Positions 23,715 through 57,333 of a DNA stretch of 64,000 bases are shown here, in pieces. The translations under genes and the position numbers were made by a program. How positions within the stretch are numbered: position 1 is the first letter of the stretch; the number at the start of each line of letters is the position of its first letter. The stretch is from Halobellus sp. MBLA0158 (GTDB lineage Archaea; Halobacteriota; Halobacteria; Halobacteriales; Haloferacaceae), in contig NZ_JBGNYA010000001.1 in assembly GCF_041477585.1 (NCBI RefSeq), positions 2,232,001 through 2,296,000 of the forward strand, read 5' to 3'. Below the pieces are notes generated by a model that was not told the origin of the DNA, made no database searches, and was given only the letters and a program-made list of their open reading frames with translations.

Positions 23715-23719
23715 ACACG

Positions 23720-26923: not shown

Positions 26924-27025
26924 GAAGCGAGCCCCCGCCGAGGGCGCTCGCGCGACGCTCGCGACCGCACGAGGAGGCCGCACTGTCGAATGAATTATTA
27001 TGGACGACGCGAGAGGTCGTGGTGT

Positions 27026-27958: not shown

Positions 27959-28078
27959 ACAGTCCTCGCGTTCGCGGTGGCCTCTGCGAACGGCGCTCCG
28001 CTCGGTTCCGGATCGAATATATCGGGAATTAACATCCAAATCTATTTAAGTCTCACCACCTACTTGCCAACCGTTGCC

Positions 28079-29389: not shown

Positions 29390-29522
29390 CGCCGCCTCGC
29401 GGCGTCCGCCCGCTCGGTCCGCCGGCCTGAGGCGGTCCCCCGGCTACGCGGTCTTTGCTCGTGAACCGTCACATACCCCGCGAGCCGTCGGTATCGACAG
29501 AAAGCGGAAAACCGCGCGTCGG

Positions 29523-30488
29523 TCAGTAATCGAGGACGTCTTCGATCCCCGCGGCGATCCGCGGCGGGTGCGGAATGTAGTAATCCTCCATCGACAGGAG
29601 CGGCACCGGGATGTCGTAGCCGGTGATGCGCTCGACCGGCGCTTCGAGGTACATCAGCACCTCGTCGTTGATCGTGGCGATGATCTCGCTCGCCCAGCCG
29701 CCGCTGTAGGGCGCCTCGTGGACGACGACACAGCGGCCGGTCTTCTTCACCGACTCGACGACCGTCTCGCGGTCCATCGGCGAGATCGTCCGGAGGTCGA
29801 TCACCTCGGCGTCGGCGTCGATGCGGTCGACCGCTTCGAGGGTCTTCTGCATCATCGCTCCCCAGGAGATCACCGTGACGTCTTCGCCCTCGCGACGCAC
29901 GGCGGCCTCGCCGATCGGGACCTCGTAGTCGTCGTCGGGGACGTCCTCCCGGACGGAGCGGTAGATGTGCTTCGGCTCCATAAACAGCACCGGGTCGGGG
30001 CTCCGGATCGCCGACTTGAGAAGCCCCTTCGTGTCGTAAGGCGTGCTCGGAATCACGACCTGGAGGCCCGGCACGTGGGCGTAGGCGCCCTCCAGGCTCT
30101 CGGAGTGGTGCTCCAAGGCGCGGATGCCGGCGCCGTAGGGCGTCCGGACGACCATCGGCGCGCTCCACTGCCCGCGGGTCCGCCAGCGAATCCGGCTGGC
30201 GTGCGTCACGAGCTGGTCGAACGCCGGGGGCAGGAACCCCGAGAACTGGATCTCCGCGACCGGGCGGAGCCCGAACACCGCGAGGCCGACCGCGCCGCCG
30301 GCGATGGCGATCTCCGACAGCGGCGTGTCGACGACGCGGTCGCCGCCGAACTGCTCTTTCAGGCCTTCGGTGGCCCGGAAGACGCCGCCGGTCTCGGCGA
30401 CGTCCTCGCCGAAGACGACGACTCCGTCGTCCCGTTCCATCTCCTCTCGCAGCGCCATATTGATGGCGTTGATGATAGTTTCAGCCAT
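29523..30488 (-). CDS. 2-oxoacid dehydrogenase E1 component, beta subunit
   Basis: 321 residues, standard E1-beta length. Typical stretches: VFGEDVAETGGVFRATEGL, DTPLSEIAIAGGAVGLAV, PYGAGIRALEHHSESLE and VVHEAPYSGGWASEI. It pairs with the alpha subunit encoded three bases upstream to form the thiamine-diphosphate-dependent decarboxylase of a pyruvate, branched-chain-oxoacid or acetoin dehydrogenase. No E2 (lipoyl transacylase) or E3 gene is adjacent, which is unusual because haloarchaeal complexes are normally encoded together. Confidence 0.92.
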   Translation of the reverse strand: MAETIINAINMALREEMERDDGVVVFGEDVAETGGVFRATEGLKEQFGGDRVVDTPLSEIAIAGGAVGLAVFGLRPVAEIQFSGFLPPAFDQLVTHASRIRWRTRGQWSAPMVVRTPYGAGIRALEHHSESLEGAYAHVPGLQVVIPSTPYDTKGLLKSAIRSPDPVLFMEPKHIYRSVREDVPDDDYEVPIGEAAVRREGEDVTVISWGAMMQKTLEAVDRIDADAEVIDLRTISPMDRETVVESVKKTGRCVVVHEAPYSGGWASEIIATINDEVLMYLEAPVERITGYDIPVPLLSMEDYYIPHPPRIAAGIEDVLDY

Positions 30489-30491
30489 TGG

Positions 30492-31640
30492 TCACCCCTT
30501 GGGTCGCCGCTCGATGTACGCTTCGAGGTCGTCGAGGTCTTCGAGGTCGCCCTCCATCTCGTCGAGCTGTCCCCGGAGGATCGGCGGCAGGTCCTCGTAG
30601 ACGTACTCGAACAGTTCGTCCACGTCACGGGGGCCGTACGCGTCTGCGGCCTCGACCGCGGCGGAGAACTCCTCGTCGACCTCGGCGACGAGCGCCTCCT
30701 TGTCGACCGCGTCCCAGAGCCCCTCCGATTTGAGGAACGACTCGTAGCGCTCGATCGGGTCGCGTTCGAGCCACTCTTCGACCTCCTCGCGACCCCGGTA
30801 CTCGGTGGGGTCGTCGCTCGTGGAGTGGCCCTCGGTGCGGTAGGTGAGCGCCTCGAAGAGGACCGGATGGCCCGCGCGAGCGAGCTCTCTGGCCTCTCGC
30901 ATCGCGTCGTACACCGCGAGGACGTCGTTGCCGTCGACCCGGATGCCGTGGACGCCGTAGCCGAGGCCGCGTTGCGCGATGGAGTTGGCGTTCGTCTGCT
31001 TCTCGAACGGCGTCGAGATGGCCCACTGATTGTTCTGGCAGTAGAAGATCGCCGGGGCGTCGAGGACGCCCGCGAAGTTCACCGCTTCGTGGAACGCGCC
31101 GGTGCTCGTCGCGCCGTCGCCGAAGTGCGCGGTGACGACCGCGTCCGTGTCGGTGAGGTTCATCCCCCAGCCGACGCCGGTGGTCATCGGGAGGTAGCCC
31201 CCGACGGAGATGCCGATCATACAGTTCTGCTCGGTCAGGAAGCGCTGGGCGTCCTCGACCCCGCGCCAGAAGAGGATGATGTCCCGGAGCGAGACGCCCC
31301 GCTGGAGCATCGCGCTGGTCTCTCGGCCCATCCCGAGGAGCCAGTCGCCGTCCTGGAGGGCGTAGCCGCTCCCGACGATGCTGGCCTCGTGACCGCGGCT
31401 GGAGCCGACCGTGCCCATCTGGCCCCGGCGCTGGAGCTTGATCATCCGCTCGGCGTAGCGCTTCTCGACGAGCATCCAGCGGTACAGATCGAGGAACTCC
31501 GTTTCCTCTAGGTCCGGGACGTCGTCGGGGTCGTACCCCCCGTCTTCGTCGACGATCTGGTACTTCTCCACCGGGAGATCCTCCTGTGAGATCCAGGGAG
31601 CGTCCAGATCGATCGCCTCCTGTGATGTGTTTGTGACCAT
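30492..31640 (-). CDS. 2-oxoacid dehydrogenase E1 component, alpha subunit
   Basis: 382 residues from MVTNTSQEAIDLDAPWI. The thiamine diphosphate motif HFGDGATSTGAFHEAVNFAG (GDG...N) is at about residue 175, and the phosphorylation-loop-like region HSTSDDPTEYRG is present as in pyruvate/branched-chain E1-alpha. It decarboxylates a 2-oxo acid, perhaps the pyruvate released by the HpaI-type aldolase. The start lies in a 197-base divergent spacer shared with the amidohydrolase gene. Exact substrate cannot be read from sequence. Confidence 0.92.
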   Translation of the reverse strand: MVTNTSQEAIDLDAPWISQEDLPVEKYQIVDEDGGYDPDDVPDLEETEFLDLYRWMLVEKRYAERMIKLQRRGQMGTVGSSRGHEASIVGSGYALQDGDWLLGMGRETSAMLQRGVSLRDIILFWRGVEDAQRFLTEQNCMIGISVGGYLPMTTGVGWGMNLTDTDAVVTAHFGDGATSTGAFHEAVNFAGVLDAPAIFYCQNNQWAISTPFEKQTNANSIAQRGLGYGVHGIRVDGNDVLAVYDAMREARELARAGHPVLFEALTYRTEGHSTSDDPTEYRGREEVEEWLERDPIERYESFLKSEGLWDAVDKEALVAEVDEEFSAAVEAADAYGPRDVDELFEYVYEDLPPILRGQLDEMEGDLEDLDDLEAYIERRPKG

Positions 31641-31772
31641 AGTGCGTGCCGTGCGTACTGGGGTCAACCGCAGGCCGCACAATAAGTATATCGCACCTTC
31701 GTCTATGATAGATTTCCAACTCGATCGTCCCGGCGGCAAAATTTAAATAAACATAAATTAACGATTGGAACG

Positions 31773-31841
31773 ATGGTCCCGACCCAACCGATCCGGGAGA
31801 ACGGGCGTATCGCCGCCACAGGCGGGGTGACAGCGCGATGA
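31773..31841 (+). CDS. Possible 22-residue leader ORF before the amidohydrolase gene
   Basis: Frame beginning MVPTQPIRENGRI. The ATG is 27 bases after the centre of a strong TATA-like TTTAAATA, an ideal leaderless start, while the amidohydrolase ATG is 65 bases further. The stop overlaps that ATG in ATGA. This geometry makes translation of the small frame more credible than usual. Confidence 0.4.
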   Translation: MVPTQPIRENGRIAATGGVTAR

Positions 31842-32926
31842 TCGACGCCGAAGCGGAGACGGTCGTCGACTGCGACTGGCACTACCAGGACTCGTTCAAG
31901 GAGGTCGCCGAGTATATGCCCGAGCCCTGGCACACCAAGTACAAGAACAGCTTCTGGGAGGACAGCGGCGTCACCCAGGCGCTGAGTTCGTTCTTCCCGA
32001 CGTCGACGGGGGATCGGCAGAACTACGGGAAAGTCCTCCGAGAACACTCGAACTACCCCGAAGAGCCCGAGGACCCCGAGCGCGTCACCGAGGGAATGGA
32101 CTTCCTCGACATCGACGTCTCCCTGCAGATCTCGCATCTCATCCTCGCGATGGGCGGGGTCACCGCCGACGACGAGCGCGTCCAAGCGTTCACCAAAGGC
32201 TACATCGAGTACATGCTCGAAGAGGTCCTGGACCCCGACGAGGGCGTCTACGGCCTCGCCCCGATGCCCTACGGCGACGTCGAAGCCTCCCTCGACATCT
32301 TAGAGCGCGTCGAGGACGAGGAAGCCTACGTCGGCGCGTGCTTCGTCACCGCGGGCGCGAGCCCCCCGCTCGGCAATCGGAAGTACGACCCGATCTACGA
32401 GCGCTGCGAGGAGATGGACTTCCCCGTCGTCTATCACACGGGCGGATCAGGTCTCGACGAGTACGTCCGCGCCGGCTACCAGGAAATGATCGAGACCCAC
32501 ACGCTCGGCTTCCTCGAATCGAATATGTCCCAAATCGTCAGCGTCGCCTGCCAGGGCGTCCCCGAGAAGTACCCCGACCTCGACATCGTCTTTATGGAAT
32601 CCGGCGTTACGTATATTCCCGGTCTGGTGAGCCGGCTGGACGAAGAATATCTCAAACGCCCCGAAGAAGCCCCACTCTTGGATACGCGTCCCAGCGAGTA
32701 CATCACTGATTTCTACTTCGGGACTCAGCCACTAGAAGTCTCCGCGCGCAACGATCTCTTGGAACTGTGCTTCGATATGATCGGCACCGATCGCCTGCTC
32801 TATGCCTCCGATTACCCCCACTGGGACTTCGACAGCCCCTCGATCATCAACGAACTCCCGATGCTCGACGACGACGAACGTCGAGCGATTCTGGGCGGCA
32901 ACGCCCTGGAGGTGTTCGAGATATGA
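31838..32926 (+). CDS. Amidohydrolase 2 family protein (ACMSD-like metal enzyme)
   Basis: 362 residues, TIM-barrel amidohydrolase of the COG2159 group, which includes ACMSD, 5-carboxyvanillate decarboxylase LigW and 4-oxalomesaconate hydratase LigJ. Candidate metal ligands: DCDWH near residue 12 (Asp where many members have the first His), the His in VVYHTGGSG, and the Asp in LLYASDYPHWDFDSP. It overlaps the following Rieske gene by four bases. In an aromatic pathway a decarboxylase or hydratase role is plausible; hydrolysis of an amide is equally open. Codon use in the last third is less GC-biased than in the first part. Confidence 0.8.
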   Translation: MIDAEAETVVDCDWHYQDSFKEVAEYMPEPWHTKYKNSFWEDSGVTQALSSFFPTSTGDRQNYGKVLREHSNYPEEPEDPERVTEGMDFLDIDVSLQISHLILAMGGVTADDERVQAFTKGYIEYMLEEVLDPDEGVYGLAPMPYGDVEASLDILERVEDEEAYVGACFVTAGASPPLGNRKYDPIYERCEEMDFPVVYHTGGSGLDEYVRAGYQEMIETHTLGFLESNMSQIVSVACQGVPEKYPDLDIVFMESGVTYIPGLVSRLDEEYLKRPEEAPLLDTRPSEYITDFYFGTQPLEVSARNDLLELCFDMIGTDRLLYASDYPHWDFDSPSIINELPMLDDDERRAILGGNALEVFEI

Positions 32927-33303
32927 GCGACGCGGAGAATCTGGTCGAGGTCGGGCCCGCCTCGGAGTTCGAGGACGGCGACGCCGAGATCGTCCAGGTC
33001 GGCCGCGCGGAAGTCGGTGTAATCCGGGCAGAGGGCGAGTTCTACGCGATCCGCAATCAGTGCCCCCACGACGGCGGCCCCGTCTGCAAGGGCAACGTTC
33101 AGAAGGAGTTAGTTGGGGAATTCAAAGGCACGGGCAAGCGCGTCGACCAACAGTACAGCGACACGGACATCATCTCCTGCCCCTGGCACGGCTGGTCCTT
33201 CGAGTTAGAGACGGGCATCCACATCGGCGACGACCGCATCCGCGTCCCCACCTACGACGTCGTCGTCGACGACGGCATCGTCTACGTCGACAGCGGTGAC
33301 TAG
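32923..33303 (+). CDS. Rieske [2Fe-2S] ferredoxin-like protein
   Basis: 126 residues. Cluster ligands are in NQCPHDGGP (Cys, His) and ISCPWHGW (Cys, His). The two motifs are about 36 residues apart, longer than the 15-17 of classic Rieske ferredoxins, with an extra segment GEFKGTGKRVDQQYSDTD. The start codon overlaps the amidohydrolase stop (ATGA), so the two proteins are made together and probably act together, the Rieske protein as electron carrier or regulator. A partner oxygenase alpha subunit is not seen in this window. Confidence 0.88.
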   Translation: MSDAENLVEVGPASEFEDGDAEIVQVGRAEVGVIRAEGEFYAIRNQCPHDGGPVCKGNVQKELVGEFKGTGKRVDQQYSDTDIISCPWHGWSFELETGIHIGDDRIRVPTYDVVVDDGIVYVDSGD

Positions 33304-38623: not shown

Positions 38624-39310
38624 CTACACGCCGGCCTCGTCGAGGAGGACGGACAGTTCGGTTTCGAGCGCGTCGACGCCGGGGGTGCCGACGTACCGCG
38701 AGTCGATCTCCCCGCCCGCACAGAAGAGGATCGTCGGCGCCGCGCCGACCTCGTACTCCTCGCGGAGCGTGTCGACGTAGTCGGGACCGTAGACGGCCGC
38801 GAACCCGACGCTCTCGGGAATCCGATTCCGGTCGAGGACCGTCTCGAAGTCCCGCTTGACCGACTCGCAGGGCTCGCAGTCGTCGCGCCAGAAGTACAGT
38901 ACCGAGGCCGCGTGCTGCTCGATAAACGGCTCGATCTCCTCGGCCGACAGCGACAGGAACCCGGAGGGGACGGGCTCGTCGGCGGCCGCCTCGCTCCGGC
39001 GGATCGACTGGGCGACGAGGACGCTCGTCGGTCGGTCCAGCGTCTCCGTGGTCTCGAAGACCGCCACGGCGTCGGCGAGGAGGTCCGGACTCGACGCCAG
39101 ATCCTCGCGCGGCACGCGTTCCTCGTTGGCGTAGTCAGCCAGGAGATCCTCGCGGGCGTCGTCGTCGAGCGAGTCGACGCGATCGCTCGCGTCCGCACGC
39201 GCCGCCGCGAACGCGTCGGTGACGATCAGGTCGCCGTCGGACTCGGCGAAGAGGCCCTCCGCGCGGAGTCTGTCGTAGAGGTCGTCGGGGTCCGGTTGCA
39301 TACTCAGCAT
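38624..39310 (-). CDS. Thioredoxin-domain protein with helical N-terminal region
   Basis: About 228 residues. The first 110 residues are acidic and helical, of unknown role. The C-terminal half is a thioredoxin fold with the active-site motif RDDCEPCESVKRD (CEPC) and the cis-proline region GAAPTILFCAGGE. Start chosen at MLSMQPDPDD, about 24 bases after a TATA-like GCTTATC; a second Met three codons later is equally possible. It is transcribed in the same direction as the transporter operon just downstream. It may work with the thioredoxin-reductase-like protein encoded at 43-44 kb. Confidence 0.8.
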   Translation of the reverse strand: MLSMQPDPDDLYDRLRAEGLFAESDGDLIVTDAFAAARADASDRVDSLDDDAREDLLADYANEERVPREDLASSPDLLADAVAVFETTETLDRPTSVLVAQSIRRSEAAADEPVPSGFLSLSAEEIEPFIEQHAASVLYFWRDDCEPCESVKRDFETVLDRNRIPESVGFAAVYGPDYVDTLREEYEVGAAPTILFCAGGEIDSRYVGTPGVDALETELSVLLDEAGV

Positions 39311-39345
39311 AACTCGGAAGGCGGAGATAAGCGTTGTTCTGCCCC

Positions 39346-40782
39346 TCAGGAGATGTCGATGCAGACGTTCTTCGTCTGGAGGTGGGACTCGAAGGCGTAC
39401 ATCCCCATCTCGCGGCCGATCCCGCTCTTCTTGTAGCCGCCGAACGGGGTCGCCGTCGAGCCGCCGAACCACTGATTCACGTAGACGGTGCCGGCCTCGA
39501 TCTCCTTTGTCATCCGCAGCGCCGTGTCGAGGTCCTGGGAGAAGACGCCGCTCGTGAGGCCGAGTTCGATATCGTTGGCGATCTCGATCGCCTCGTCCTG
39601 GTCGGAGAAGGGGATCACACAGAGGACCGGGCCGAAGATCTCCTCTTGGGCGATCGTCATCCCGGTGTCGACGTCGGAGAACACCGTCGGCTCGACGAAG
39701 TAACCGTCGCGGTCGGGGGCTTCGCCGCCCGTCTCCAGCGTGGCGCCCTCCTCGATACCGGTCTCGATGTAGTCCATCACCTCTTCGAGGTGGGCCTCGT
39801 GGTTGAGCGGGCCCATATCGGGGTCGTCCATCCCGGCGCCGAGTTCGTACCCCTCGGCGCGCTCGACGATCATCTCGACGAACTCGTCGTAGACGTCCTC
39901 GTGGACGATCGCGCGGTCGGCGGCCGCACAGATCTGGCCGGTGTTGCTGAAGATGCCGATCTGGACCGCGGTGACGGCCCCTTCGAGGTCGGCATCGGGC
40001 ATCACCACGGCGGGGTTCTTCCCGCCGAGTTCGAGGGTGACGGGCGTGATGTTCTTCGCGGCGGACTCCATCACGGCCTGGCCGGTCGGGACGCTCCCAG
40101 TAAAGGAGATGGTGTCGACGTCCTCGTGGCCCGACAGCGCCGCGCCGGGTTCGGTCGCGCCGGTGACGACGTTGATCAGCCCGTCGGGGACGCCCGCCTC
40201 CGTGCAGATCTCCGCGAGGTGCAGCGGCGGGAGGGGCGTCGTGGGCGCGGGCTTGACGACGACCGCGTTGCCCGCAGCGAGCGCGGGGGCGATCCCCTGG
40301 GCCGTGAGGTTCAGGGGCGTGTTCCAGGGGATGATCTGCGCGCTCACGCCGTATGGCTCGCGCATCGTGAAGTCGACGCCGTCCTCGCCGATCGGGATGC
40401 TGTCGCCCTGGATCTTGTCGGCCGCGCCCGCGTAGAAGTCGAACGTCGCCGCCGCGCCCTGGATCAACTGCTTCGCGTATCCGAGCGGCTTGCCCTGATC
40501 GCGCGTCTCGATCTCCGCGAGTCGGTTGGCGTTCTCCCGGACCGCGTCAGCGACGTCCCGGAGGAGCGCGCCGCGCTCACCGGGGTCTTTCGTCTCCCAC
40601 TCGGCCTGGGCGCGCTGGGCGGCCGCGACCGCGCGGTCGACGTCTTCTGCCGTCGCGGCGGCGTACTCCGCGATCGGTTTCTCGGTCGCGGGGTCGATCG
40701 TCGTCCGGTACTCCTCGCCGGCGGGCGCTGCGTCTTCGCCGTCGATGAACAGGTGGTATCGTTCCTGGGTTGCGAGTGACAT
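39346..40782 (-). CDS. Aldehyde dehydrogenase (NAD(P)+), class similar to succinate-semialdehyde/betaine-aldehyde enzymes
   Basis: 478 residues, full-length ALDH. Catalytic motifs: IIPWNTPLNL, VKPAPTTPLPPLHLAEI, FTGSVPTGQAVM, LELGGKNPAVV (general-base Glu) and FSNTGQICAAADR (nucleophilic Cys at about 283). The C-terminal FGGYKKSGIGREMG is typical. It oxidises an aldehyde to an acid, for example one released by the aldolase or by the alcohol oxidases in the island. It is transcribed on the same strand between the thioredoxin-like gene and the dipeptide-type binding-protein gene. Confidence 0.92.
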   Translation of the reverse strand: MSLATQERYHLFIDGEDAAPAGEEYRTTIDPATEKPIAEYAAATAEDVDRAVAAAQRAQAEWETKDPGERGALLRDVADAVRENANRLAEIETRDQGKPLGYAKQLIQGAAATFDFYAGAADKIQGDSIPIGEDGVDFTMREPYGVSAQIIPWNTPLNLTAQGIAPALAAGNAVVVKPAPTTPLPPLHLAEICTEAGVPDGLINVVTGATEPGAALSGHEDVDTISFTGSVPTGQAVMESAAKNITPVTLELGGKNPAVVMPDADLEGAVTAVQIGIFSNTGQICAAADRAIVHEDVYDEFVEMIVERAEGYELGAGMDDPDMGPLNHEAHLEEVMDYIETGIEEGATLETGGEAPDRDGYFVEPTVFSDVDTGMTIAQEEIFGPVLCVIPFSDQDEAIEIANDIELGLTSGVFSQDLDTALRMTKEIEAGTVYVNQWFGGSTATPFGGYKKSGIGREMGMYAFESHLQTKNVCIDIS

Positions 40783-43030: not shown

Positions 43031-43951
43031 TCACTCGCCGTGCCGGGCGATGTACTCCTTCGCCGCGGTGATCGCCGTGGTGCCGTCGCCGACCGCGGCG
43101 GCGATCTCGAGGGGGCTGTCCTGGCGGGCGTCGCCGGCGGCGTAGATGCCCGGCGCGCTCGACTCCATCCGGTGGTCGACGACGATTCGCCCCTCGTCGT
43201 CGAGGTCGACGGTCCCCTCCAGGAAGCCGGTGTTCGGGACGCAGCCGACGTTGACGTTGAGGCCGCCCAGCTCCAGCCTCTCGGTCTCGCTCGAGCCGCC
43301 GCGCTCGACCTCGACGCCGGTCAGGAGGCCGTCCTCGCCGACGACTTCGGTGACGGTCGTGTCGGTCCGCACCTCGATGTCGGGGTGGGATGTCACCTCG
43401 TCGACGAGCGTGTCGTCGCCGTCGAGCTCCGGCTTCGAGTCGACGAGAAGCACCTCCGAGGCGTACTCGGTCAGGAACACGGCGTCGATGAGCGCGTGGT
43501 TCCGGCCGCCGACGACCGCGATCCGCTCGTCGCGGTACAGCGGGCCGTCGCAGGCCGCACAGTGGAAGACGCCGCGGCCCTCGTACTCCTCCTCGCTGGG
43601 GACGCCGAGGCGCTGTTCGGTCCCGCCGGGCGCGAGGATGACGGCGGTCGCCTCGTACTCGTTGCCCCCGGTGTGGAGGACGTGCGGCTCGCCCGGTTCG
43701 ATCCGCTCGACGGTCTCCAGTTGGACCTCGGGGTCGTACGCCTCCGCGGCCTCGACCATCTTGCCGCGGAGCTCCGTCCCGGAGATGCCGTCGGGGAAGC
43801 CGGGATACGACCGGACCTCGTGGCGGTTGACCAGGTCGCCGCCGATGGACTCGCGCTCGAAGAACAGGACGTCGAGACCGCTCCGGCCCGCGTAGGCGCC
43901 TGCGGTCAGTCCGGCCGGTCCGGTCCCGACGATGATGAGATCGTGTGTCAC
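43031..43951 (-). CDS. Thioredoxin-reductase-like NAD(P)/FAD oxidoreductase
   Basis: 306 residues, TrxB length. FAD motif IIVGTGPAGLTAGAYAGRSG at the N-terminus, redox-active pair CAACD (about residue 135), NADPH-binding IAVVGGRNHALIDAVFLTEYA (here GGRNHA in place of the usual GGGDSA) and the closing FAD motif GIYAAGDARQDSP. It should reduce a thioredoxin-like protein; the altered NAD(P)H loop may change coenzyme preference. The gene is divergent from the zinc alcohol dehydrogenase gene. The CEPC thioredoxin-like protein at 38.6 kb is a possible partner. Confidence 0.88.
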   Translation of the reverse strand: MTHDLIIVGTGPAGLTAGAYAGRSGLDVLFFERESIGGDLVNRHEVRSYPGFPDGISGTELRGKMVEAAEAYDPEVQLETVERIEPGEPHVLHTGGNEYEATAVILAPGGTEQRLGVPSEEEYEGRGVFHCAACDGPLYRDERIAVVGGRNHALIDAVFLTEYASEVLLVDSKPELDGDDTLVDEVTSHPDIEVRTDTTVTEVVGEDGLLTGVEVERGGSSETERLELGGLNVNVGCVPNTGFLEGTVDLDDEGRIVVDHRMESSAPGIYAAGDARQDSPLEIAAAVGDGTTAITAAKEYIARHGE

Positions 43952-44075
43952 GGGTACTACCGGGATTCTGCCAGGGCGTTGAAAAAGGTTTCTACGAGCC
44001 GATTCGATCGTGAAGGCGTGCGACCCGATCGGTCCGACCAGTACCCTTAATAATAATTGGTATGGATTGCCAGCC

Positions 44076-45113
44076 GTGAAAGCAGCCAGACTCTACGGTG
44101 AGGAAGACATCCGTATCGACGACGTGGAGGCGCCGACGCCGGGGCCCGGAGAGGTCCTCGTGGACGTCGCGGCCTGCGGGATCTGCGGCTCGGACCTGCA
44201 CTTCTACCAGCACCCCGACGACTTCTTCGACGACGAGGACCTCCCGCTGACGCTCGGCCACGAGATCGGCGGGACGATCGCCGAGACCGGCGAGGGCGTC
44301 GACATCGAAGTCGGCACCGAAGTCGTCCTCGGCCCCCACACCCCCTGCGGCGAGTGCTGGTGCTGCGAGGAGGGCAAGTACAACCTCTGTCGCGACCTGA
44401 ACGCGACGTCGGCCCGCCCCGGCGGCTACGCCGAGCAGGTCGTCGAGAGCGCCGACAACGCGGTCCCTCTCCCCGAAAATGTCTCCCCCGAGGACGCCGC
44501 GATCGCCCAGCCGGTCAGCGTCGGCCTCCACGCGGTCCGCCAGTCCCCGCTCGGCATCGGCGACAGCGTCGCCGTCGTCGGCGCGGGGCCCATCGGCCTC
44601 GGCGCGATCCGCTCGGCGAAGGCGGCCGGCGCGGGACCGATCTACGTCTCCGAGCCCCAGGACTCGCGCCGCGAGGTGGCCGCGGAGTTCGGCGCGGACG
44701 TCCTCGTCGATCCGAGCGAGGAGGACGCCGTCGAGCGGATCCGCGAGGAGACGGGCCGCGGCGTCGACGTCGCCTTCGAGGCCGTCGGCCACGAGAACAC
44801 GCTGCGTCAGGCCGTGGAATCGACCCGCGCGGACGGCCACACCACGGTGATCGGCGTGTTCAGCGACTCGGTCGAGTTCGAGCCGCAACTGCTCGTCCAG
44901 GACCAGCGGACGGTCGGCGGGTCGACCTCGCACCTTCTCGGGCCGCGCCTGACCGAGGAGTACGGCGTGGTGATCCGCCAGCTCGAACGCGGCGACCTCG
45001 ACGCCGACCGCTACGTCACCTCGCGGATCGGCCTCGACGACGTCGTTTCCGACGGCTTCGAGGCGCTCCTGGCCGACGACAGCGACGAGCGGAAGATCCT
45101 CGTCTGTCCGTAG
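44076..45113 (+). CDS. Zinc-dependent medium-chain alcohol dehydrogenase
   Basis: 345 residues from a GTG (reading KAARLYGEEDI after the initiator). This GTG is 25 bases after the TATA-like CTTAATAATAA, the ideal leaderless spacing. Catalytic zinc ligands: CGICGSDLH (Cys and following) and GHEIGG; structural zinc cysteines CGECWCCEEGKYNLC. NAD-binding VAVVGAGPIGLGAIRSAKAAG. It is of the threonine/sorbitol/butanediol dehydrogenase type and oxidises a secondary alcohol or polyol. It stands alone in direction between the TrxB-like gene and the UGSC-partner gene. Confidence 0.9.
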   Translation: MKAARLYGEEDIRIDDVEAPTPGPGEVLVDVAACGICGSDLHFYQHPDDFFDDEDLPLTLGHEIGGTIAETGEGVDIEVGTEVVLGPHTPCGECWCCEEGKYNLCRDLNATSARPGGYAEQVVESADNAVPLPENVSPEDAAIAQPVSVGLHAVRQSPLGIGDSVAVVGAGPIGLGAIRSAKAAGAGPIYVSEPQDSRREVAAEFGADVLVDPSEEDAVERIREETGRGVDVAFEAVGHENTLRQAVESTRADGHTTVIGVFSDSVEFEPQLLVQDQRTVGGSTSHLLGPRLTEEYGVVIRQLERGDLDADRYVTSRIGLDDVVSDGFEALLADDSDERKILVCP

Positions 45114-45191: not shown

Positions 45192-46280
45192 TTACTCGTA
45201 GAAGCCCTCGGTGGGCACCCAGTTCCGCTCGACGTCGCCGGAGTACTCCTCCAGAAGGGACTCCCAGTTGTCGGGGAAGCGGATCTTCTTCGTGACCGGG
45301 CCGCCGATCGACGTCCCGATGATGGCGTTGACCCGGCCGGGGCCGCCGATGGTGGCGATCTTCACCGCGTCGACGTCCTGGTACTGCTTGATCTGCCGCG
45401 GCGGGATCCCGTCGCCGTCGTCGTAGGAGCGCTTGTACTCGTTGAGCGTGTGATGGGAGTTCTCGACGAGGTACTCCTTGATCTCGTCTTTGCTCAGGTC
45501 TTCTTTTTCCAGCTCCTCGGCGTTGTAGGGGTTGATCGCGTGAGTGATCGTCGCGTTCAGATCCTCGCCCGAACTGGCGCGCATCGAGTCGGGCGTGTTC
45601 CGGATCATCCCGCGCAGGACGTGTTCGGCCTCGTTCTCGCTGGGGAACCACTGGACCCAGCCGTTGGGGCCGGCCAGCGAAATGGTGCTGTCCTCCTCCT
45701 CGTAGCCGTGGGTGACGTGGTAGGGCTCCCAGGGGCTGGCCTCCTCGTTCTCGCCGGCGAGCATATAGAACTTCCCGGGGTTGCCCATCACGCCCATGTC
45801 CTTCTCGCCGGGGTAGATCTTCGCCGTGTTGCGGTAGGCCATCCCCAGGGCGCGAGCGATCGTCTGGTTCGCGTGGAAGCTCGGGCCGAACGCGCCCGAT
45901 CCGCTCTCGATGTCGAGCATCTCCCGGACGGGCCCGTTGACGATCCACTGGTAGGCCCAGGAGGCCGTCGATACGGAGAACTGGATCGAGTTCGAGTCGG
46001 GATCCGCCAGCGCGCGAACGCCCGCTTCGAGGACGGGCATATACGTGGGGAGACAGCCCGCCATCACGGCGTTGGCGGCGAGCTTCTCCACGGTGAGGGC
46101 GTTCCCGTTGTTGCCGAGGCGACCGACGACGTCGTCGCGGGGGCGGTCGATCCCGCGGAGCATCTCCTCGACGCGCTCGTCGGTCGGCGGGATGACGGGG
46201 AGCCCGTCGGTCATCCCCTCGCGGTACAGCGACTTGTTGATCTCGTCTAACGACTGCTCGGGGGCTTCGTTGTCGGACAT
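45192..46280 (-). CDS. Conserved UGSC-partner protein A, function unknown
   Basis: 362 residues, no signal or membrane segments. I do not recognise a characterised fold. Conserved-looking features are DGLPVIPPT (residues 25-33), NAVMAGCLPTYMPV with Cys76, SGSGAFGPSFHANQT and the C-terminal GGPGRVNAIIGTSIGGPVTKKIRFP, also present in a paralogue at 56.2 kb that matches over almost the whole length. It starts 17 bases after the UGSC gene on the same strand, so the two form an operon and probably a complex or consecutive enzyme steps. Neighbouring CoA ligase, alcohol and aldehyde oxidoreductases suggest a catabolic role. Confidence 0.7.
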   Translation of the reverse strand: MSDNEAPEQSLDEINKSLYREGMTDGLPVIPPTDERVEEMLRGIDRPRDDVVGRLGNNGNALTVEKLAANAVMAGCLPTYMPVLEAGVRALADPDSNSIQFSVSTASWAYQWIVNGPVREMLDIESGSGAFGPSFHANQTIARALGMAYRNTAKIYPGEKDMGVMGNPGKFYMLAGENEEASPWEPYHVTHGYEEEDSTISLAGPNGWVQWFPSENEAEHVLRGMIRNTPDSMRASSGEDLNATITHAINPYNAEELEKEDLSKDEIKEYLVENSHHTLNEYKRSYDDGDGIPPRQIKQYQDVDAVKIATIGGPGRVNAIIGTSIGGPVTKKIRFPDNWESLLEEYSGDVERNWVPTEGFYE

Positions 46281-46297
46281 AAATCGGAGAGAAGGCC

Positions 46298-46867
46298 TTA
46301 CTGCGGCACCGGGTCGGCGCGTTCCTTGTCGTTCAGTTCGCGGGTGAGCTCGTCGACGATGCCGTCGACGACCTCTTCTGTGACCTCCTCGCGCACGCGG
46401 TCGAGGTCGGTCGTCTCACAGCGCACGGGCGTCTTCTTGTAGCGCAGGGGTCGGCCGCGCTCGATCGCGTTCGACTGGTAGTCGAGCTCGAAGCCCTCGT
46501 CGATCAGGCCGACGCCGGGCGTGCCGGCGTCCTCGATGAGCTCGACGCCCCACGCGAGGAACTTCGTACAGGAGCCGCAGTCGCCGATGGCGCCGATCGC
46601 GGTGTCGACTCCGGCGGCCCACTCCTTGACGGCGTCCTGCTCGTCGTCGTTCTTGATCTGATTGAGGTGCTCGACGTGGTACCACGTGAACTCGGCGTCG
46701 GGGTAGCGCGCTTCCAGTTTCTCCTTGACGGCCGTGAGAAGCGGCTCCGCGGCCGGCTTGCCGTTGTCGTAGAGGCCGATGGTCTTGCCGTCGAGCGAGT
46801 CGACGCGGGGGACGAGCGGCTGCTGTTCGGTGTCTTCGGTGTCCGAACCGGGTGTGATGAGTCCCAT
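46298..46867 (-). CDS. UGSC-family protein, cysteine (CGSC) form
   Basis: 189 residues from MGLITPGSDTE; the ATG is 28 bases after a TATA-like ACTATATGT (this strand), and an in-frame TTG two codons earlier is rejected. The diagnostic motif is GDCGSCTKF, CGSC at residues 97-100, where selenoprotein members of the family have selenocysteine in the first position. The surrounding fold (TIGLYDNGKP at the start, AIGAIGDCGSC in the middle) looks like a Rossmann-type domain. A redox or thiol-transfer reaction is suggested by the motif but the biochemical function is not known to me. Partner gene A follows 17 bases downstream. Confidence 0.75.
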   Translation of the reverse strand: MGLITPGSDTEDTEQQPLVPRVDSLDGKTIGLYDNGKPAAEPLLTAVKEKLEARYPDAEFTWYHVEHLNQIKNDDEQDAVKEWAAGVDTAIGAIGDCGSCTKFLAWGVELIEDAGTPGVGLIDEGFELDYQSNAIERGRPLRYKKTPVRCETTDLDRVREEVTEEVVDGIVDELTRELNDKERADPVPQ

Positions 46868-47013: not shown

Positions 47014-48348
47014 ATGGCGGATGTCTACGATCCGATCGAAACGCGGCCGTGGGAGGAGGTGCGCGCCGAGCACGAGCGCATCCTTCCCGAGCAGATCGAC
47101 TACCTCCGGGAGAACTCCGATTTCTACCGTCGCCGGTTCCGCGAGTGGGACGTCGACCCCGACGACCTGACGACCCTCGACGCGCTCAGCGAGGTGCCGT
47201 TCACGACGAAGCAGGACGAGCGCGACTCCCAGACCGACACCGTTCCGGCCAAGCCGCTCGGCGAGCACCAGGCCGCGCCGAAGTCCGCGCTCAACCGGAC
47301 GATCTCCTCGTCGGGCACGACGGGCAAGCCCACCTACTTCGGGCTCACCGCCCAGGACCGACGCAACTGGAACACCGTCCAGAAGCGCTCGTTCTACACC
47401 GTCGGCGTCCGGCCGGAGGACACCGTCCTCTTCGGCGCGGGCCAGACGATGATCACCGGCGGGACGCCGTACTTCGAGACCCTGACGAAGCTCGGGGCGA
47501 ACGTGGTGCCCGCCGGCGGCGAGAGCACGGAGCGCCTGCTCTCCGTCGCGCTCGACGTCGAGCCGGACATCCTCTGGACGACCACCTCCCACATCCGCTA
47601 CCTCTCGGAGAACGCCGAAGACGCCGTCGGCGTCGCGCCCGGCGACTTCGGCATCACGAAGGTTATCGGCGGCGCCGCGCCGGGCATCGCCAACCCCGAG
47701 ATCCGCGCGGAGTTCTACGACATCTGGAACGCGGACCTCGTCCGCGAGGCGATGGGCCTCGGCGACGTCCTCGGGAGTATGTGGGCCGAATGCGAGGAGG
47801 AAAACGGGATGCACTTCCACGCGCAGGGGTTCGTCCACCCCGAGCTGATCGACCCCGAGACCGAGGCGGTGAAGCCGTTCGAGGCCGGCGCCGAGGGCGA
47901 ACTCGTCTACACCCACCTGCGCCGCGAGGCGACGCCGCTGCTCCGCTTCCGCTCGGGCGACTACGTGAAGGTGATCGACACCGAGTGCTCCTGCGGGCGG
48001 ACCGCTCCGAAGATCCGCGTCGTCGGCCGCGCCGACGACATGCTCATCTACAAGGGGATGAACGTCTTCCCCTCGGCGATCCGCGACGTCATCTCCGACG
48101 TCGAGGACGTGGCCCCGCGGCTCCGCGTGGTCCTCCCCGAGGAGGGCAAGGTGAACTTCGAGGAGCCGATCCCGATCGAGATCGCCCGCGAACCGGACAG
48201 CGACCGCGACGAGGCCGCGCTGGTCGACGAAGTCATCACCGAGGTCCGCGCGCAACTGAAGGCGCGGGTCGACCCCACTGTCGTCGACGTCGACGACCTG
48301 CCCGCCGGGGAGTACAAGACCAAGCTCATCGAAGAGCGCGACGGGTAA
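47014..48348 (+). CDS. PaaK-type CoA ligase (phenylacetate-CoA ligase family)
   Basis: 444 residues, the size of PaaK rather than of longer acyl-CoA ligases. The ATG at MADVYDPIETRPWEE is 29 bases after a TATA-like TTAAAATA. Motifs: NRTISSSGTTGKPTYFG (nucleotide loop, about 98), the Cys-rich DTECSCGRTAPKIRVVGRADDMLIYKGMNVFP (located around residues 320-355), and the C-terminal GEYKTKLIEER lysine region. It activates an aryl or short carboxylic acid as CoA thioester. It is divergent from the UGSC operon, so the two may share substrate-dependent control. The exact acid is unknown. Confidence 0.88.
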   Translation: MADVYDPIETRPWEEVRAEHERILPEQIDYLRENSDFYRRRFREWDVDPDDLTTLDALSEVPFTTKQDERDSQTDTVPAKPLGEHQAAPKSALNRTISSSGTTGKPTYFGLTAQDRRNWNTVQKRSFYTVGVRPEDTVLFGAGQTMITGGTPYFETLTKLGANVVPAGGESTERLLSVALDVEPDILWTTTSHIRYLSENAEDAVGVAPGDFGITKVIGGAAPGIANPEIRAEFYDIWNADLVREAMGLGDVLGSMWAECEEENGMHFHAQGFVHPELIDPETEAVKPFEAGAEGELVYTHLRREATPLLRFRSGDYVKVIDTECSCGRTAPKIRVVGRADDMLIYKGMNVFPSAIRDVISDVEDVAPRLRVVLPEEGKVNFEEPIPIEIAREPDSDRDEAALVDEVITEVRAQLKARVDPTVVDVDDLPAGEYKTKLIEERDG

Positions 48349-48523: not shown

Positions 48524-50056
48524 TTACTGGGCCTCCTTCAGCAGATCGGCGCCCTTCTCGGCGATGGCGATGGTCGGCGCGTTCGTGTTCCCGCTCGTGA
48601 TCTGCGGCATCACGGAGGCGTCGATCACGCGCAGGGAGTTCAGGCCGTGGACCCGGAGGTCGTCGTCGACGACGGCCATCTCGTCGTCGCCCATCTTCGC
48701 CGTGCAGGTCGCGTGATAGCCCGTGACGGCGTGGTTCCGGATGTACTCGGCGATCGCCTCGTCGGACTCCGCGTCGGGCCCGGGGCGGTGTTCCTCGTCG
48801 CGGATGTCAGCAAGCGCGTCGGCCTCGCCGATCTTCCGCGCCCAGCGGACGCAGGTGACGAAGTCGTCGACGTCCTTCTCGGTCGAGAGGTAGTTCGGGT
48901 CGATCTTCGGGTGGTCGAAGGGGTCGTCCGAGGTGAGGGTGAGCCGCCCCCGGCTGGTCGGCCGGAGCGGGAGCACCGTGATGGCGTAGCCGCTGCCGGG
49001 GTTCTGCGGCGAGAGGCCGGGCGCCATCCCGAACTGCATATCCGGCGCGGGGGGGTCGGGGTCCGAGCGCTTGAACGCACCGACGCTGACGCGGTCGTAG
49101 CGGCTGCCGCGACCGGCCTTGTCGGTGACGGACTCGACCTCCTCTGTGGTCTCGAAGGCGACGTCGACGCGGAGGTGGTCCTGGAGGTTGCGGCCGACGC
49201 CCGGGAGGTCGACCTTGACGTCGATGTCGTGTTCTTCGAGGTGGTCGGCGGGGCCGATCCCCGAGAGCATCAGGAGCTGGGGCGACTGGATCGCGCCCGC
49301 CGAGAGGACGACTTCGCCGTCCTCGGCGATGGCGGCCTGGTCGCTCGTCCAGCCCTTGTTGTAGACCACGCCGGTCGCGGTGTCGCCGCTGAAGGTGAGC
49401 TCGGTGACGTGCGCGCCGGTCTCGATGTGGAGGTTGTCGCGGTCGAGGATGGGCTTGATGAACGCCGCGGCGGTGCTGTGTCTGTGGCCGTCGGCGATCG
49501 TCGAGTGATAGAGGCCGACGCCGGTCTGGCGCTCCCCGTTGAAGTCCGTGTTCCGCTCGAAGCCGACCTCCTCGGCGGCCTCGATGAGCGTCTGGTCGAG
49601 GTCGTTCGGTTCCTCGCCGCGGGAGACCGTGAGCGGGCCGTCGGTGCCGTGGTACTCGGCGTCGCCCTCGGCGGTGAGGTTCTCCGAGCGCTTGAAGTAC
49701 GGGAGCAGGTCGTCGTATCCCCAGCCGTCGTTGCCGAGGTCGGCCCAGTTGTCGAAGTCGTAGGCGTGGCCGCGGACGTAGGCCATCCCGTTGATCACGG
49801 TCGATCCGCCCAGCGCCTTCCCGCGCGGCCAGGCGATCGAGCGGCCGTTCAGTCCGGGCTGGGGCTCGGTCTCGAAGCCCCAGTCGATGTCCGAACCCAG
49901 GAGATCCCACACGCGTGTGGGGTCCTTCACCGCGGTTCGGTTCTCTTCTGGGTTCCCCGATTCGAGGAGCAGCACCTCGACCGACGGGTCCTCGGTCAGC
50001 CGGTGGGCGAGGGTACAGCCGGCTGCGCCGCCGCCGACGATAATGTAGTCGTACAT
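48524..50056 (-). CDS. GMC-family FAD-dependent oxidoreductase (1)
   Basis: 510 residues. FAD motif YIIVGGGAAGCTLAHRL at the N-terminus, GMC signature PRGKALGGSTVINGMAYVRG (about 80), SAGAIQSPQLLMLSGIGP (second signature) and the C-terminal active-site His/Asn in GYHATCTAKMG and SGNTNAPTIAIAEKG. GMC enzymes oxidise primary alcohols (choline, long-chain or aryl alcohols, polyethers) to aldehydes. Start set at the ATG reading MYDYI; an in-frame GTG one codon earlier is possible. An inverted repeat (CGTAC-N6-GTACG) lies right at the start region. A second GMC gene lies 2.7 kb away. Confidence 0.9.
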   Translation of the reverse strand: MYDYIIVGGGAAGCTLAHRLTEDPSVEVLLLESGNPEENRTAVKDPTRVWDLLGSDIDWGFETEPQPGLNGRSIAWPRGKALGGSTVINGMAYVRGHAYDFDNWADLGNDGWGYDDLLPYFKRSENLTAEGDAEYHGTDGPLTVSRGEEPNDLDQTLIEAAEEVGFERNTDFNGERQTGVGLYHSTIADGHRHSTAAAFIKPILDRDNLHIETGAHVTELTFSGDTATGVVYNKGWTSDQAAIAEDGEVVLSAGAIQSPQLLMLSGIGPADHLEEHDIDVKVDLPGVGRNLQDHLRVDVAFETTEEVESVTDKAGRGSRYDRVSVGAFKRSDPDPPAPDMQFGMAPGLSPQNPGSGYAITVLPLRPTSRGRLTLTSDDPFDHPKIDPNYLSTEKDVDDFVTCVRWARKIGEADALADIRDEEHRPGPDAESDEAIAEYIRNHAVTGYHATCTAKMGDDEMAVVDDDLRVHGLNSLRVIDASVMPQITSGNTNAPTIAIAEKGADLLKEAQ

Positions 50057-50388
50057 CACGTACTATTGTGTACGAAAACTGTAACTAATACGTTTCGGAA
50101 TAGGTAACACAGACGACTCGAACGTGCAGGGTCGTCCCGCCGCTGAATCTCCGACGTTCAGGAACGACCATCAGAGTTTGACGTGGTCAAATTAGCTACT
50201 GTCCTCCTTCGACCCGGATTACGCCAACAATTTCTCGCACGAAACGTCTCAGATTTAATTCGATAAATTCGACGCGTGCGTGAGACGGTAACAAACCGTA
50301 TCCTCGCGACCCTGCGTTCAGGAATAACAGGCGTACACGAGTTATTCAAAATGGTCGTTCATTTTAGAGTGTTTGATGAGGTCAAAGA
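50057..50388. other. Intergenic spacer before GMC gene 1
   Basis: No gene seen. It holds CGTAC (50059-50063) and GTACG (50070-50074), an inverted repeat at the GMC promoter, and the direct repeat GTTCAGGAA (50156-50164 and 50316-50324) followed each time by a similar short palindromic context. Moderately AT-rich. A short leftward frame in it has no coding character. Confidence 0.5.
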
Positions 50389-52721: not shown

Positions 52722-54245
52722 TCAGTCGAGCCCGCGGATCATATCGGAGGCCTTCTCGGCGATGGCGATGGTCGGCGCGTTCGTGTTGCCCGTCGTGATC
52801 CGGGGCATAATCGAGGCGTCGACGACCCGGAGGTCGTTCAGGCCGTGGACGCGCAGGCGCTCGTCGACGACGGCCATCTCGTCGTCGCCCATCTTGCACG
52901 TCCCGACCGGGTGGTAGATCGTCTGGACCGTCTCGCGGACGTGCTCGCGGAGGTCCTCGTCGCTCTCGACCTCGCCCTCGGGCCAGACCTCCTCGCCGCG
53001 GTACTCGTCGAGCGCGCTGGCGTGGGCGATCTCCCGGGTGCGCTTGACGCCCTCGACGAGCTTGTCGAGGTCCTCCTCGTGGGCGAGGTAGTTCGGATCG
53101 ATGACCGGCTCGTCGAACGGGTCGTCGGAGGCGAGGGAGATCCGGCCGCGGCTCTTGGGGTGCAAGAGCGTGGTGCTCGGCGTGAGCCCGTCGCCCTCGG
53201 GGTTGTCGAAGCCGTGGTTCATAAAGTAGACGCGGGCGAGGAAGTACTGGAGGTCCGGCGCCGGGAGGTCCGAGTCGGTCCGCTCGAAGCCGGTGACCTG
53301 ACAGAGGACCTCGCCGGGCTCGATCTCGGGGTCGCCCTGGAGTTCGTACGCCGAGGAGGCGACGAGGTGGTCCTGGAGGTTGCGGCCGACACCCGGGAGG
53401 TCGTGCTTCACGTCGATGCCGTGGTCTTCGAGGTGGTCGGCGGGGCCGACGCCCGACAGCAGGAGGAGCTGGACGGAGTCGATCGCGCCCGCCGAGAGGA
53501 TGACCTCCTCGTCGGCCTCGGCGGTGTACGACGAGCCGTCCTGGACGTAGGTGACGCCCGCGGCGGTGTCGCCGTCGAACTCGATCTGGGTGACGCGGGC
53601 GCCCGTTTGGGCCGTGAGGTTCTCCCGGTCCAAGACCGGGTGGAGGTACGCGACGGCCGTGCTCTGGCGCTCGCCGTCCTCGACGGTGAGCGGGAGGGGG
53701 CCCATTCCCTCCTGCTGGCCGGCGTTGACGTCCTCGTTGCGGTCGAAGCCGACCTCGACGGCGGCGTCGATCAGCGCGTTCGTGACGTCGCCGTAGGGGT
53801 GCTCCTGCTCGACGCGGAGCGGGCCGCCCTCGCCGTGGTGGGCTGACTCGCCGCTCTCGTGGTCCTCCATCCGCTTGAAGTACGGCAGCATCTCGTCCCA
53901 GCTCCAGCCGTCGTTGCCGAGGTCGGCCCACCGGTCGTAGTCGTGGGGGTTCCCCCGGACGTACATCATCGCGTTGATCGCCGAGGAGCCGCCGAGGGTC
54001 TTGCCGCGCGGCCAATACTCCTCGCGGCCGTTGAGCCCCTCCTGGGGGACCGTCGAGTAGTCCCAGTCCACCTCCGACTTCATCAAGTGGGGGAACATCG
54101 TGGGGTTGTGGATCGCCTCTTTCTCGTCCGGTTCGCCCGCTTCCAGCAGCAGTACGTCGGCGTCCTCGTCGGCCGAGAGTCGGTTCGCCAGCACGCAGCC
54201 GGCGGACCCGGCGCCGACGACGACGTAGTCGTACGTGTTCGGCAT
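52722..54245 (-). CDS. GMC-family FAD-dependent oxidoreductase (2)
   Basis: 507 residues. FAD motif YVVVGAGSAGCVLANRL, GMC signature PRGKTLGGSSAINAMMYVRGN and second signature SAGAIDSVQLLLLSGVGP; active-site residues in IYHPVGTCKMG and TGNTNAPTIAIAEKAS. It is closer to choline/aliphatic-alcohol dehydrogenases than GMC 1 appears to be, but the substrate is open. It is divergent from an aldehyde dehydrogenase gene across a 123-base spacer, a classic alcohol-to-acid pair. The TATA-like ATTATGTATC lies about 29 bases before the ATG. Confidence 0.9.
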   Translation of the reverse strand: MPNTYDYVVVGAGSAGCVLANRLSADEDADVLLLEAGEPDEKEAIHNPTMFPHLMKSEVDWDYSTVPQEGLNGREEYWPRGKTLGGSSAINAMMYVRGNPHDYDRWADLGNDGWSWDEMLPYFKRMEDHESGESAHHGEGGPLRVEQEHPYGDVTNALIDAAVEVGFDRNEDVNAGQQEGMGPLPLTVEDGERQSTAVAYLHPVLDRENLTAQTGARVTQIEFDGDTAAGVTYVQDGSSYTAEADEEVILSAGAIDSVQLLLLSGVGPADHLEDHGIDVKHDLPGVGRNLQDHLVASSAYELQGDPEIEPGEVLCQVTGFERTDSDLPAPDLQYFLARVYFMNHGFDNPEGDGLTPSTTLLHPKSRGRISLASDDPFDEPVIDPNYLAHEEDLDKLVEGVKRTREIAHASALDEYRGEEVWPEGEVESDEDLREHVRETVQTIYHPVGTCKMGDDEMAVVDERLRVHGLNDLRVVDASIMPRITTGNTNAPTIAIAEKASDMIRGLD

Positions 54246-56235: not shown

Positions 56236-57333
56236 ATGTCCGAAAACTCACAGACGCCGCAGTCGTACGACGAGACGTACCGATCGCTCTACGAGGAGGG
56301 AATGACGGACGGGCTCCCGGTGGTCCCCCCGACCGAGGAGCGCGTCGAGGAGATGCTCCGCGGGATCGACCGCCCCCGCGACGACGTCGTCGGTCGCCTC
56401 GGCAACAACGAAAATCCCCTGACCGTCGAGGACCTCGCCGCCAACGCGGTGATGGCGGGCTGTGTGCCGCCGTATATGCCGGTGCTCGAAGCCGGCGCGC
56501 GGGCCCTCGCGGACCCCGAGTCGAACTCGATCCAGTTCTCCGTGAGCACGGGCTCGTGGGCCTACCAGTGGATCGTCAACGGGCCCGTACGCCAGAAATT
56601 GAACATCGAGAGCGGGTCGGGCGCGTTCGGCCCGAACTTCCACGCGAACCAGACCATCTCGCGGGCGCTCGGCATCGCCTACCGCAACACGGCGAAGATA
56701 TACCCCGGCGAGAAGGATATGGGCGTGATGGGCAATCCCGGGAAGTTCTACCTCCTCGCGGGCGAAAACGAGGAGGCCAGCCCCTGGGAGCCCTACCACG
56801 TCACCCACGGCTACGAGGAGGACGACAGCACCGTCACGCTGTCGGGCCCCAACGGCTGGGTGCAGTGGCTGCCCGACGAGAACAGCCCCGAGAGCGTCCT
56901 GCGCGGGATGATCAAGAACACCCCGCGCGCGATGCGGTCGCGCTCGGGGGAGGACCTCAACGCGACGATCACCCACGCGATCAACCCCTACAACGCCGAG
57001 GAGTTAGAGCGGGCCGACCTGAGCAAGGACCAGATCAAGCGGTACCTCGTCGAGAACTCCGACGTCCGGACGGAGGCGCGACCCGATCCGTTGTCCACGT
57101 CGGCGACGTTCGAAGACACAGACATACCGAACCGACAGATATCACAGTACGGTGATGTTAATTCAGTGAAGATCACTTCGATCGGAGGTCCAGGCCGAGT
57201 AAACGCGATTATCGGAATGTCCATTGGCGGACCGGTAACGAAAAAGATCCGATTTCCGAATAACTGGGAATCGCTCGTCGAGGAGTACGAGTTCGAGCGG
57301 AACTGGGTGCCGACCGAGGGCTTCTACGAGTAG
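56236..57333 (+). CDS. Conserved UGSC-partner protein B, function unknown
   Basis: 365 residues, paralogue of partner A with only scattered changes over the first 270 residues (DGLPVVPPT, NAVMAGCVPPYMPV, SGSGAFGPNFHANQT, MGVMGNPGKFYLL). The linker around residues 280-300 differs, and the last third returns to near identity (GGPGRVNAIIGMSIGGPVTKKIRFP). Codons in that last part (about 57.1-57.29 kb) are AT-rich at third positions, unlike the rest and unlike partner A. No intact UGSC gene stands before it. Function not recognised; it lies downstream of the aldehyde dehydrogenase in the same direction. Confidence 0.7.
   Translation: MSENSQTPQSYDETYRSLYEEGMTDGLPVVPPTEERVEEMLRGIDRPRDDVVGRLGNNENPLTVEDLAANAVMAGCVPPYMPVLEAGARALADPESNSIQFSVSTGSWAYQWIVNGPVRQKLNIESGSGAFGPNFHANQTISRALGIAYRNTAKIYPGEKDMGVMGNPGKFYLLAGENEEASPWEPYHVTHGYEEDDSTVTLSGPNGWVQWLPDENSPESVLRGMIKNTPRAMRSRSGEDLNATITHAINPYNAEELERADLSKDQIKRYLVENSDVRTEARPDPLSTSATFEDTDIPNRQISQYGDVNSVKITSIGGPGRVNAIIGMSIGGPVTKKIRFPNNWESLVEEYEFERNWVPTEGFYE

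Follow-up and report, generated by a model that had tools for sequence, protein, structure and literature searches.

A conserved two-protein system pairs UGSC-family (seleno)proteins, very likely relatives of the selenocysteine domain of glycine reductase protein B, with an undescribed partner family

Introduction

Few orphan selenoprotein families have matched the abundance of UGSC in environmental DNA since 2008, and we know of no partner, fold, or reaction assigned to it over that time. The 2008 Global Ocean Sampling survey reports a fusion between a UGSC selenoprotein and 'Unknown_1', a conserved domain that contains Cys, and calls the fusion limited to a few aquatic organisms (PMC2398784); pairing of the two, kinship with glycine reductase protein B (GrdB), and a link to thioredoxin reductase are not described there.

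The closest characterized systems are the GrdB/PrdB-like proteins (PF07355) of the glycine, sarcosine, betaine, and D-proline reductases, which use a selenocysteine (Sec) nucleophile and resemble UGSC in profile over about 90 columns. In glycine reductase, the substrate carbon is attacked by Sec with loss of ammonia, and thioredoxin provides the electrons, cleavage of the C-Se bond being the unusual step (PMC10298544); the thioredoxin supply may be a further likeness to the system described here. For one GrdB/GrdE-type pair, the farB/farE fluoroacetate reductase, Sec attack has been proposed as the means of breaking the C-F bond of fluoroacetate (PMC10838667).

Here we describe a UGSC-family gene and its neighbor in a 64,000-nucleotide stretch of the Halobellus sp. 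MBLA0158 genome, the whole of which we refer to as the window, together with their relatives in other archaea and in bacteria. The UGSC family and its 2008 fusion with Unknown_1 were already known; the partner family, the pairing, the kinship with GrdB, and the redox link appear to be new.

Results

A Cys-type UGSC gene and its neighbor in Halobellus

Reading of the open reading frames in the window places a UGSC-family gene 17 bases upstream of the ATG of a second gene, whose product we name DG after its DGLPV motif (Table 1). The UGSC protein carries C97-G98-S99-C100 at residues 97-100, where Cys takes the place of Sec in the UGSC motif, and DG contains DGLPVIPPT at residues 25-33, Cys76 within NAVMAGC, and the segment GGPGRVNAIIG. 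These features had been described in the initial annotation, and its coordinates, motifs, 17-base gap, and flanking PaaK-type ligase and alcohol dehydrogenase genes all proved right on checking. With its Sec/Cys-G-S-C motif and a whole-length match to the Pfam UGSC profile PF24696 (E = 1.8e-26; 93.8 bits, where the cut-off is 25; positions 3-171 of the 172 in the profile), the window protein resembles other members of the family, but it lies in a divergent haloarchaeal Cys clade and scores 69.8 bits against NF041046 ('UGSC family (seleno)protein'), under the equivalog cut-off of 125. Its gene has a Cys codon at the motif and not the in-frame TGA of a selenoprotein.

Table 1. Features of the window in and around the UGSC-DG pair
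Feature	Position	Strand	Length	Remarks
UGSC-family protein	46298-46867	minus	189 aa	ATG at 46867, stop at 46298
DG ("DGLPV protein", partner)	45192-46280	minus	362 aa	ATG start
DG2, second DG paralogue	56236-57333	plus	365 aa	81% identical to DG; Cys76 motif kept
TrxR-like flavoprotein with CAAC	43031-43951	minus		TIGR01292 E = 7.5e-85, 284 bits, below cut-off 343
Protein with thioredoxin domain (CEPC)	38624-39415	minus		PF00085 E = 1.2e-5
Zinc alcohol dehydrogenase (Zn-ADH)	44010-45113	plus		tail-to-tail with DG
PaaK-type acyl-CoA ligase	47014-48348	plus		divergent neighbor; PF14535; NF041878 below cut-off
GMC-type FAD oxidoreductase	48524-50059	minus		PF00732/PF05199; catabolic neighbor
Second GMC-type FAD oxidoreductase	52722-54245	minus		PF00732/PF05199; catabolic neighbor
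Amidohydrolase (PF04909) beside Rieske ferredoxin	31838-33303	plus		in the same catabolic region
LivH/LivM-type transporter proteins, HpcH/HpaI aldolase, VOC dioxygenase-like protein, 2-oxoacid dehydrogenase E1-like subunits	23711-31739			further catabolic genes

The source genome has one UGSC gene and two DG genes. DG2 has no adjoining UGSC gene. Some relatives have a gene of the DG2 type immediately upstream of UGSC, and in several haloarchaea two DG genes flank a single UGSC gene, an arrangement that suggests a heteromer.

UGSC and DG genes are paired across haloarchaea and many bacterial phyla

The proposal that DG might regularly accompany UGSC was borne out by searches that started from UGSC, in which DG adjoins all 18 of the haloarchaeal UGSC genes (from 17 of 341 members of the class) and lies within 1.5 kb of 14 of the 16 bacterial ones. 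A search of 84,980 species genomes with DG returned at least 581 relatives, and UGSC is present in 72 of the best 80 of these loci, nearly always adjacent. Four of the eight that lack it are Poribacteria with a short DG, and in one of the eight (L065) the contig ends where UGSC would be expected. Altogether we found 115 distinct adjacent pairs and four UGSC genes with no DG within 400 bp, a count that is biased by having been gathered partly through DG, whereas the counts from the UGSC-based searches are unbiased. The adjacent pairs span haloarchaea and many bacterial phyla, with UGSC leading in 97 and DG leading in 18, and with a median gap of 44 bp between the domains. Adjacency of UGSC and DG is far beyond chance.

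The two proteins also co-vary. Distances between UGSC proteins track those between their DG partners across 114 pairs (Mantel r = 0.87), and the same is seen among 10 paralogous pairs within one betaproteobacterial genome that has 14 or more UGSC copies (r = 0.54, Mantel p = 0.003), where species history cannot explain it. Natural fusions of the two occur as well: one on the Acidovorax sp. T1 plasmid p2-T1 (L035:8625-11138) has TGA at the motif, with its DG part broken near the end by an IS-type transposase fragment, and Cys-less fusions are present in Vibrio europaeus and Sporomusa termitida. Adjacency, fusion, and co-variation thus strongly support the earlier suggestion of a two-protein unit of uncharacterized chemistry, and UGSC and DG are a real and general two-protein system.

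DG is a family undescribed in the resources searched

DG has no family or relative among Pfam, NCBIfam, and PDB sequences, and 18 diverse members match only UGSC (in the fusions), one IS-derived transposase piece, and chance hits in Pfam and NCBIfam. The Unknown_1 domain of the 2008 survey is probably DG (PMC2398784). An AlphaFold2 model of the window DG has a pLDDT of 91.3, and a Foldseek comparison with known structures gave a best E of 0.25, with no clear fold match. A chorismate-mutase-like fold for residues 205-324, indicated by VIA-align, was rejected at a Z of 6.2, under the trust level. Profile comparisons likewise gave no grounds for relating DG to GrdE-type proteins (0.1%, with a GrdE set that is small and partly in the wrong frame) or to the N-terminal part of GrdB (2.1%). 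Ten residues are invariant in 98 DG homologues (D25, G26, P32, A74, G75, C76, G116, R143, E177, and W184), and Cys76 lies between two predicted helices.

Selenocysteine, cysteine, and thiol-less forms

Among 94 UGSC domains, TGA falls exactly at the first motif position in 79, Cys is found there in 11, and the searched motif is missing in four. Of 12 Sec hosts tested, 11 have a selB gene above cut-off and the twelfth has only pieces at contig ends; neither of the two Cys hosts has one above cut-off. The window UGSC belongs to a clade of 11 haloarchaeal Cys forms that has full support and sits on a long branch, with other haloarchaeal Cys groups elsewhere in the UGSC tree. Because most of the rows in the UGSC alignment were chosen by the motif, the apparent invariance of C97 and C100 is partly by construction. 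The second motif Cys is replaced by Ser in several members (UGSS, UGTS), so it is the first residue, and not a dithiol pair, that looks essential. An unusually large expansion is seen in a betaproteobacterial metagenome-assembled genome (UBA5216; L057/G361, loci L164 and L167-L179), where the UGSC genes number at least 14 and each has an in-frame TGA.

Some UGSC-type domains have neither Sec nor Cys, with Met at the position in the Vibrio and Sporomusa fusions and other residues in loci L089 and L100, and the chemistry of this branch must differ. The thiol-less domains (L039:9377-11062, L040:9335-11059, L089, and L100) have aconitase X among their neighbors.

UGSC resembles the Sec domain of GrdB

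The AlphaFold2 model of the window UGSC (pLDDT 93.4) is a three-layer, alternating alpha/beta (Rossmann-like) structure with five strands, in which Cys97 is placed at the junction of strand 3 and helix 3. Rows from plasmid records were left out of the structure predictions. The structural matches listed for the UGSC model are Rossmann-, flavodoxin-, and receiver-like, with no thioredoxin-fold chain among them, an absence that is in itself no evidence against that fold. The top match (Z 11.1 over 139 residues) is chain H of PDB 8s7v, a methyl-coenzyme M reductase activation complex; this chain may be Mmp7. Profile comparison of UGSC with Mmp7 gave 0.6%, and we regard the likeness as that of a shared common fold only.

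Comparison with GrdB was more productive, with hhalign aligning UGSC and GrdB over 92 columns (95.0%, P = 3.7e-8) and UGSC and small PrdB-like proteins at P = 2.4e-5. Masking the motif in both UGSC and the PrdB-like set left the register unchanged (P = 1.4e-5), and a reversed UGSC control gave P = 0.16. These scores, with the masked motif and the reversed control, argue that UGSC is a relative of the GrdB Sec domain; the two share [U/C]-G-x-C followed by E..GIPT and then HPxG, and an HMM built from UGSC alone picks up read-through frames of GrdB, the best at E = 4.6e-7 in a small set. PF07355 members are themselves present in 15 of the 16 DG-bearing genomes tested, with Sec sites such as UGSC, UGTC, UGTS, UPLC, and similar, and none of 16 UGSC members matches PF07355 even at E <= 5, so the kinship is remote and confined to the Sec-side half. 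We found no PF07355 protein in the source genome, an absence that is credible, if unproven, because the model works in Sec hosts. Judged from these sequence profiles, the short UGSC protein is very likely related to the Sec domain of glycine reductase protein B.

UGSC also differs from GrdB/PrdB. It is about 190 aa, its partner is DG and not GrdE or PrdA, and we identified no GrdA, GrdC, or pyruvoyl GrdE/PrdA counterpart for the pair. UGSC occurs in haloarchaea and many uncultured bacteria, whereas GrdB and PrdB are found in amino-acid-fermenting anaerobes. The farB/farE module resembles UGSC-DG as a substrate-specific, two-protein GrdB-type system with a proposed Sec attack on a polar C-X bond, but it is anaerobic and its components are true homologues of GrdB and GrdE (PMC10838667).

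Thioredoxin-reductase-like genes lie near many Cys-type pairs

Of the 23 testable Cys-type pairs, 12, the window pair among them, have a thioredoxin reductase (TrxR)-like gene no more than 4 kb away, and none of the 42 Sec-type pairs do (Fisher p = 3e-7); for bacteria alone, the figures are three of five and none of 42 (p = 6e-4). This association comes mostly from one haloarchaeal clade and three bacteria, and the relatedness of the loci weakens it. An independent-contrast test of Cys against TrxR had no power, since well-supported branches offered only one usable pair, and the link is correlational only. In haloarchaeal loci L154 and L157, UGSC, DG, and TrxR run in one direction with the TrxR-like gene abutting DG, the order in Roseovarius is DG-UGSC-trxB, and that in Arthrobacter is trxB-trxA-DG-UGSC. 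In the window, the TrxR-like and thioredoxin-domain genes are on the same strand as the pair, with the opposite-strand alcohol dehydrogenase gene between TrxR and DG. The window flavoprotein is a probable supplier of reductant, and the thioredoxin-domain protein a possible electron carrier.

Other neighbors are less constant. Zn-ADH homologues are present at 10 of 19 archaeal loci and PaaK homologues at five, with PaaK at none of 73 bacterial loci; this rules out PaaK or a CoA ligase as a defining partner of the pair and leaves weak the 'activated acid' that had been guessed as substrate from the PaaK neighbor. TrxR-like genes are the more informative neighbor of the Cys form. Genes for TTT-type binding proteins, identified by reading of the sequence, lie near the pair in about 26 loci, and we set these aside as a constant neighbor or substrate clue, the pattern fitting a betaproteobacterial habit. 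The surroundings of the pair in the window include GMC oxidoreductases, aldehyde dehydrogenases, an alcohol dehydrogenase, an SDR protein, a CoA ligase, and peptide-type ABC transport genes.

Discussion

The pairing, the co-variation, the kinship with GrdB/PrdB, and the exchange of Sec for Cys are computed results, around which a reaction class, a role for Cys76, and a thioredoxin supply can be proposed. UGSC and DG may together constitute a single two-component (seleno)thiol reductase, in which Cys/Sec97 attacks in the manner of GrdB and which is fed by thioredoxin in the haloarchaeal Cys form; we give this reading about an even chance of being correct. UGSC, as a small stand-alone alpha/beta relative of the GrdB/PrdB Sec domain, would present the nucleophilic Cys97 (Sec in most bacteria), and we infer that DG holds the substrate, probably in a pocket that it builds, and lends the invariant thiol of Cys76. 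By analogy with glycine and proline reductase, the thiolate or selenolate of UGSC would attack a carbon beside a carbonyl or carboxyl group, with departure of an amine, an alkoxide, or another leaving group, and the resulting C-S or C-Se bond would be broken by a thiol (Cys76 or Cys100) to give a disulfide or selenodisulfide. In the haloarchaeal Cys form, the disulfide would then be reduced again by two proteins encoded in that cluster, the TrxR-like flavoprotein and the one with the thioredoxin domain. Sec attack in glycine reductase and in the fluoroacetate pair is what suggests, by analogy, that UGSC-DG reductively cleaves a bond in such a position.

The likeliest substrate is a small organic acid or a derivative of one, given the TTT, TRAP, and ABC transporters, CoA ligases and transferases, and dehydrogenases nearby, and substrates probably differ among paralogues. 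The window neighbors (GMC oxidoreductases, aldehyde dehydrogenases, alcohol dehydrogenase, SDR, CoA ligase, and ABC transporter) suggest that an alcohol is oxidized to an acid and then activated, and one speculative idea is that the window pair acts on an alkoxy-acid or another alpha-substituted acid.

Other explanations have to be weighed against a carbon-bond-cleaving reductase. UGSC could instead be a thiol-disulfide oxidoreductase or peroxidase with a redox-active CxxC/UxxC, with DG as its protein client or scaffold and no carbon bond cleaved, as the motif spacing and the TrxR and thioredoxin genes beside several Cys forms would allow; a thioredoxin-like fold is called likely in the 2008 survey (PMC2398784). 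We think this unlikely, as the confident UGSC model is a five-stranded alpha/beta structure whose listed matches are Rossmann-, flavodoxin-, or receiver-like, a dithiol motif should not tolerate the Ser of UGSS and UGTS, and the catabolic neighborhoods with their transporters point to small-molecule metabolism. Similarly improbable, in our estimation, is a non-redox lyase, hydrolase, or transferase that works through a covalent adduct on the UGSC Cys or Sec, or an enzyme made up of DG alone with UGSC in a regulatory or structural role. Four observations speak for such a reading: the Vibrio and Sporomusa fusions have Met where the catalytic residue should be, two further loci lack the motif, the source genome has a second DG gene with no adjoining UGSC, and a few loci have DG without a nearby UGSC. 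Nearly all other members, however, strongly retain Sec or Cys, and this and the TrxR neighbors argue for redox chemistry in the main branch.

A Paracoccus ferrooxidans plasmid (L034), on which selA, selB, trxB, TusA, DsrE-type, and cysteine desulfurase genes occupy about 10 kb around a Sec-type pair, raises the thought of a sulfur or selenium carrier or a selenium-metabolism module in place of a catabolic reductase. We consider this very improbable: no such cluster is seen in the other annotated neighborhoods, no selB passes the cut-off in the haloarchaeal host, and as many as 14 paralogues in a genome fit substrate-specific enzymes better. There is equally little likelihood that UGSC and DG act separately and merely share a conserved neighborhood in a catabolic island; the window region is indeed a large catabolic and transport cluster, but the pairing recurs in many phyla and in either gene order, also takes the form of fusions, and extends to matched paralogues within one genome.

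If UGSC-DG is a GrdB-like reductase, a broader proposal can be made, which we hold tentatively: that it represents Stickland-like reductases of a class of their own, widespread outside the fermenting anaerobes, with DG as a new family of enzyme subunits. Its members would be substrate-specific two-protein modules, as many as 14 or more to a genome, reductively splitting C-O, C-N, or C-X bonds beside a carbonyl, and using either Sec or, in haloarchaea, a Cys form with its own thioredoxin reductase. A near-constant partner, a GrdB-type ancestry, and haloarchaeal Cys versions accompanied by thioredoxin reductase turn an orphan family into a testable enzyme system, and selenocysteine machinery is not needed to express the Cys forms. 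Should the proposal hold, reductive cleavage of the Stickland kind would extend well past clostridial fermentation.
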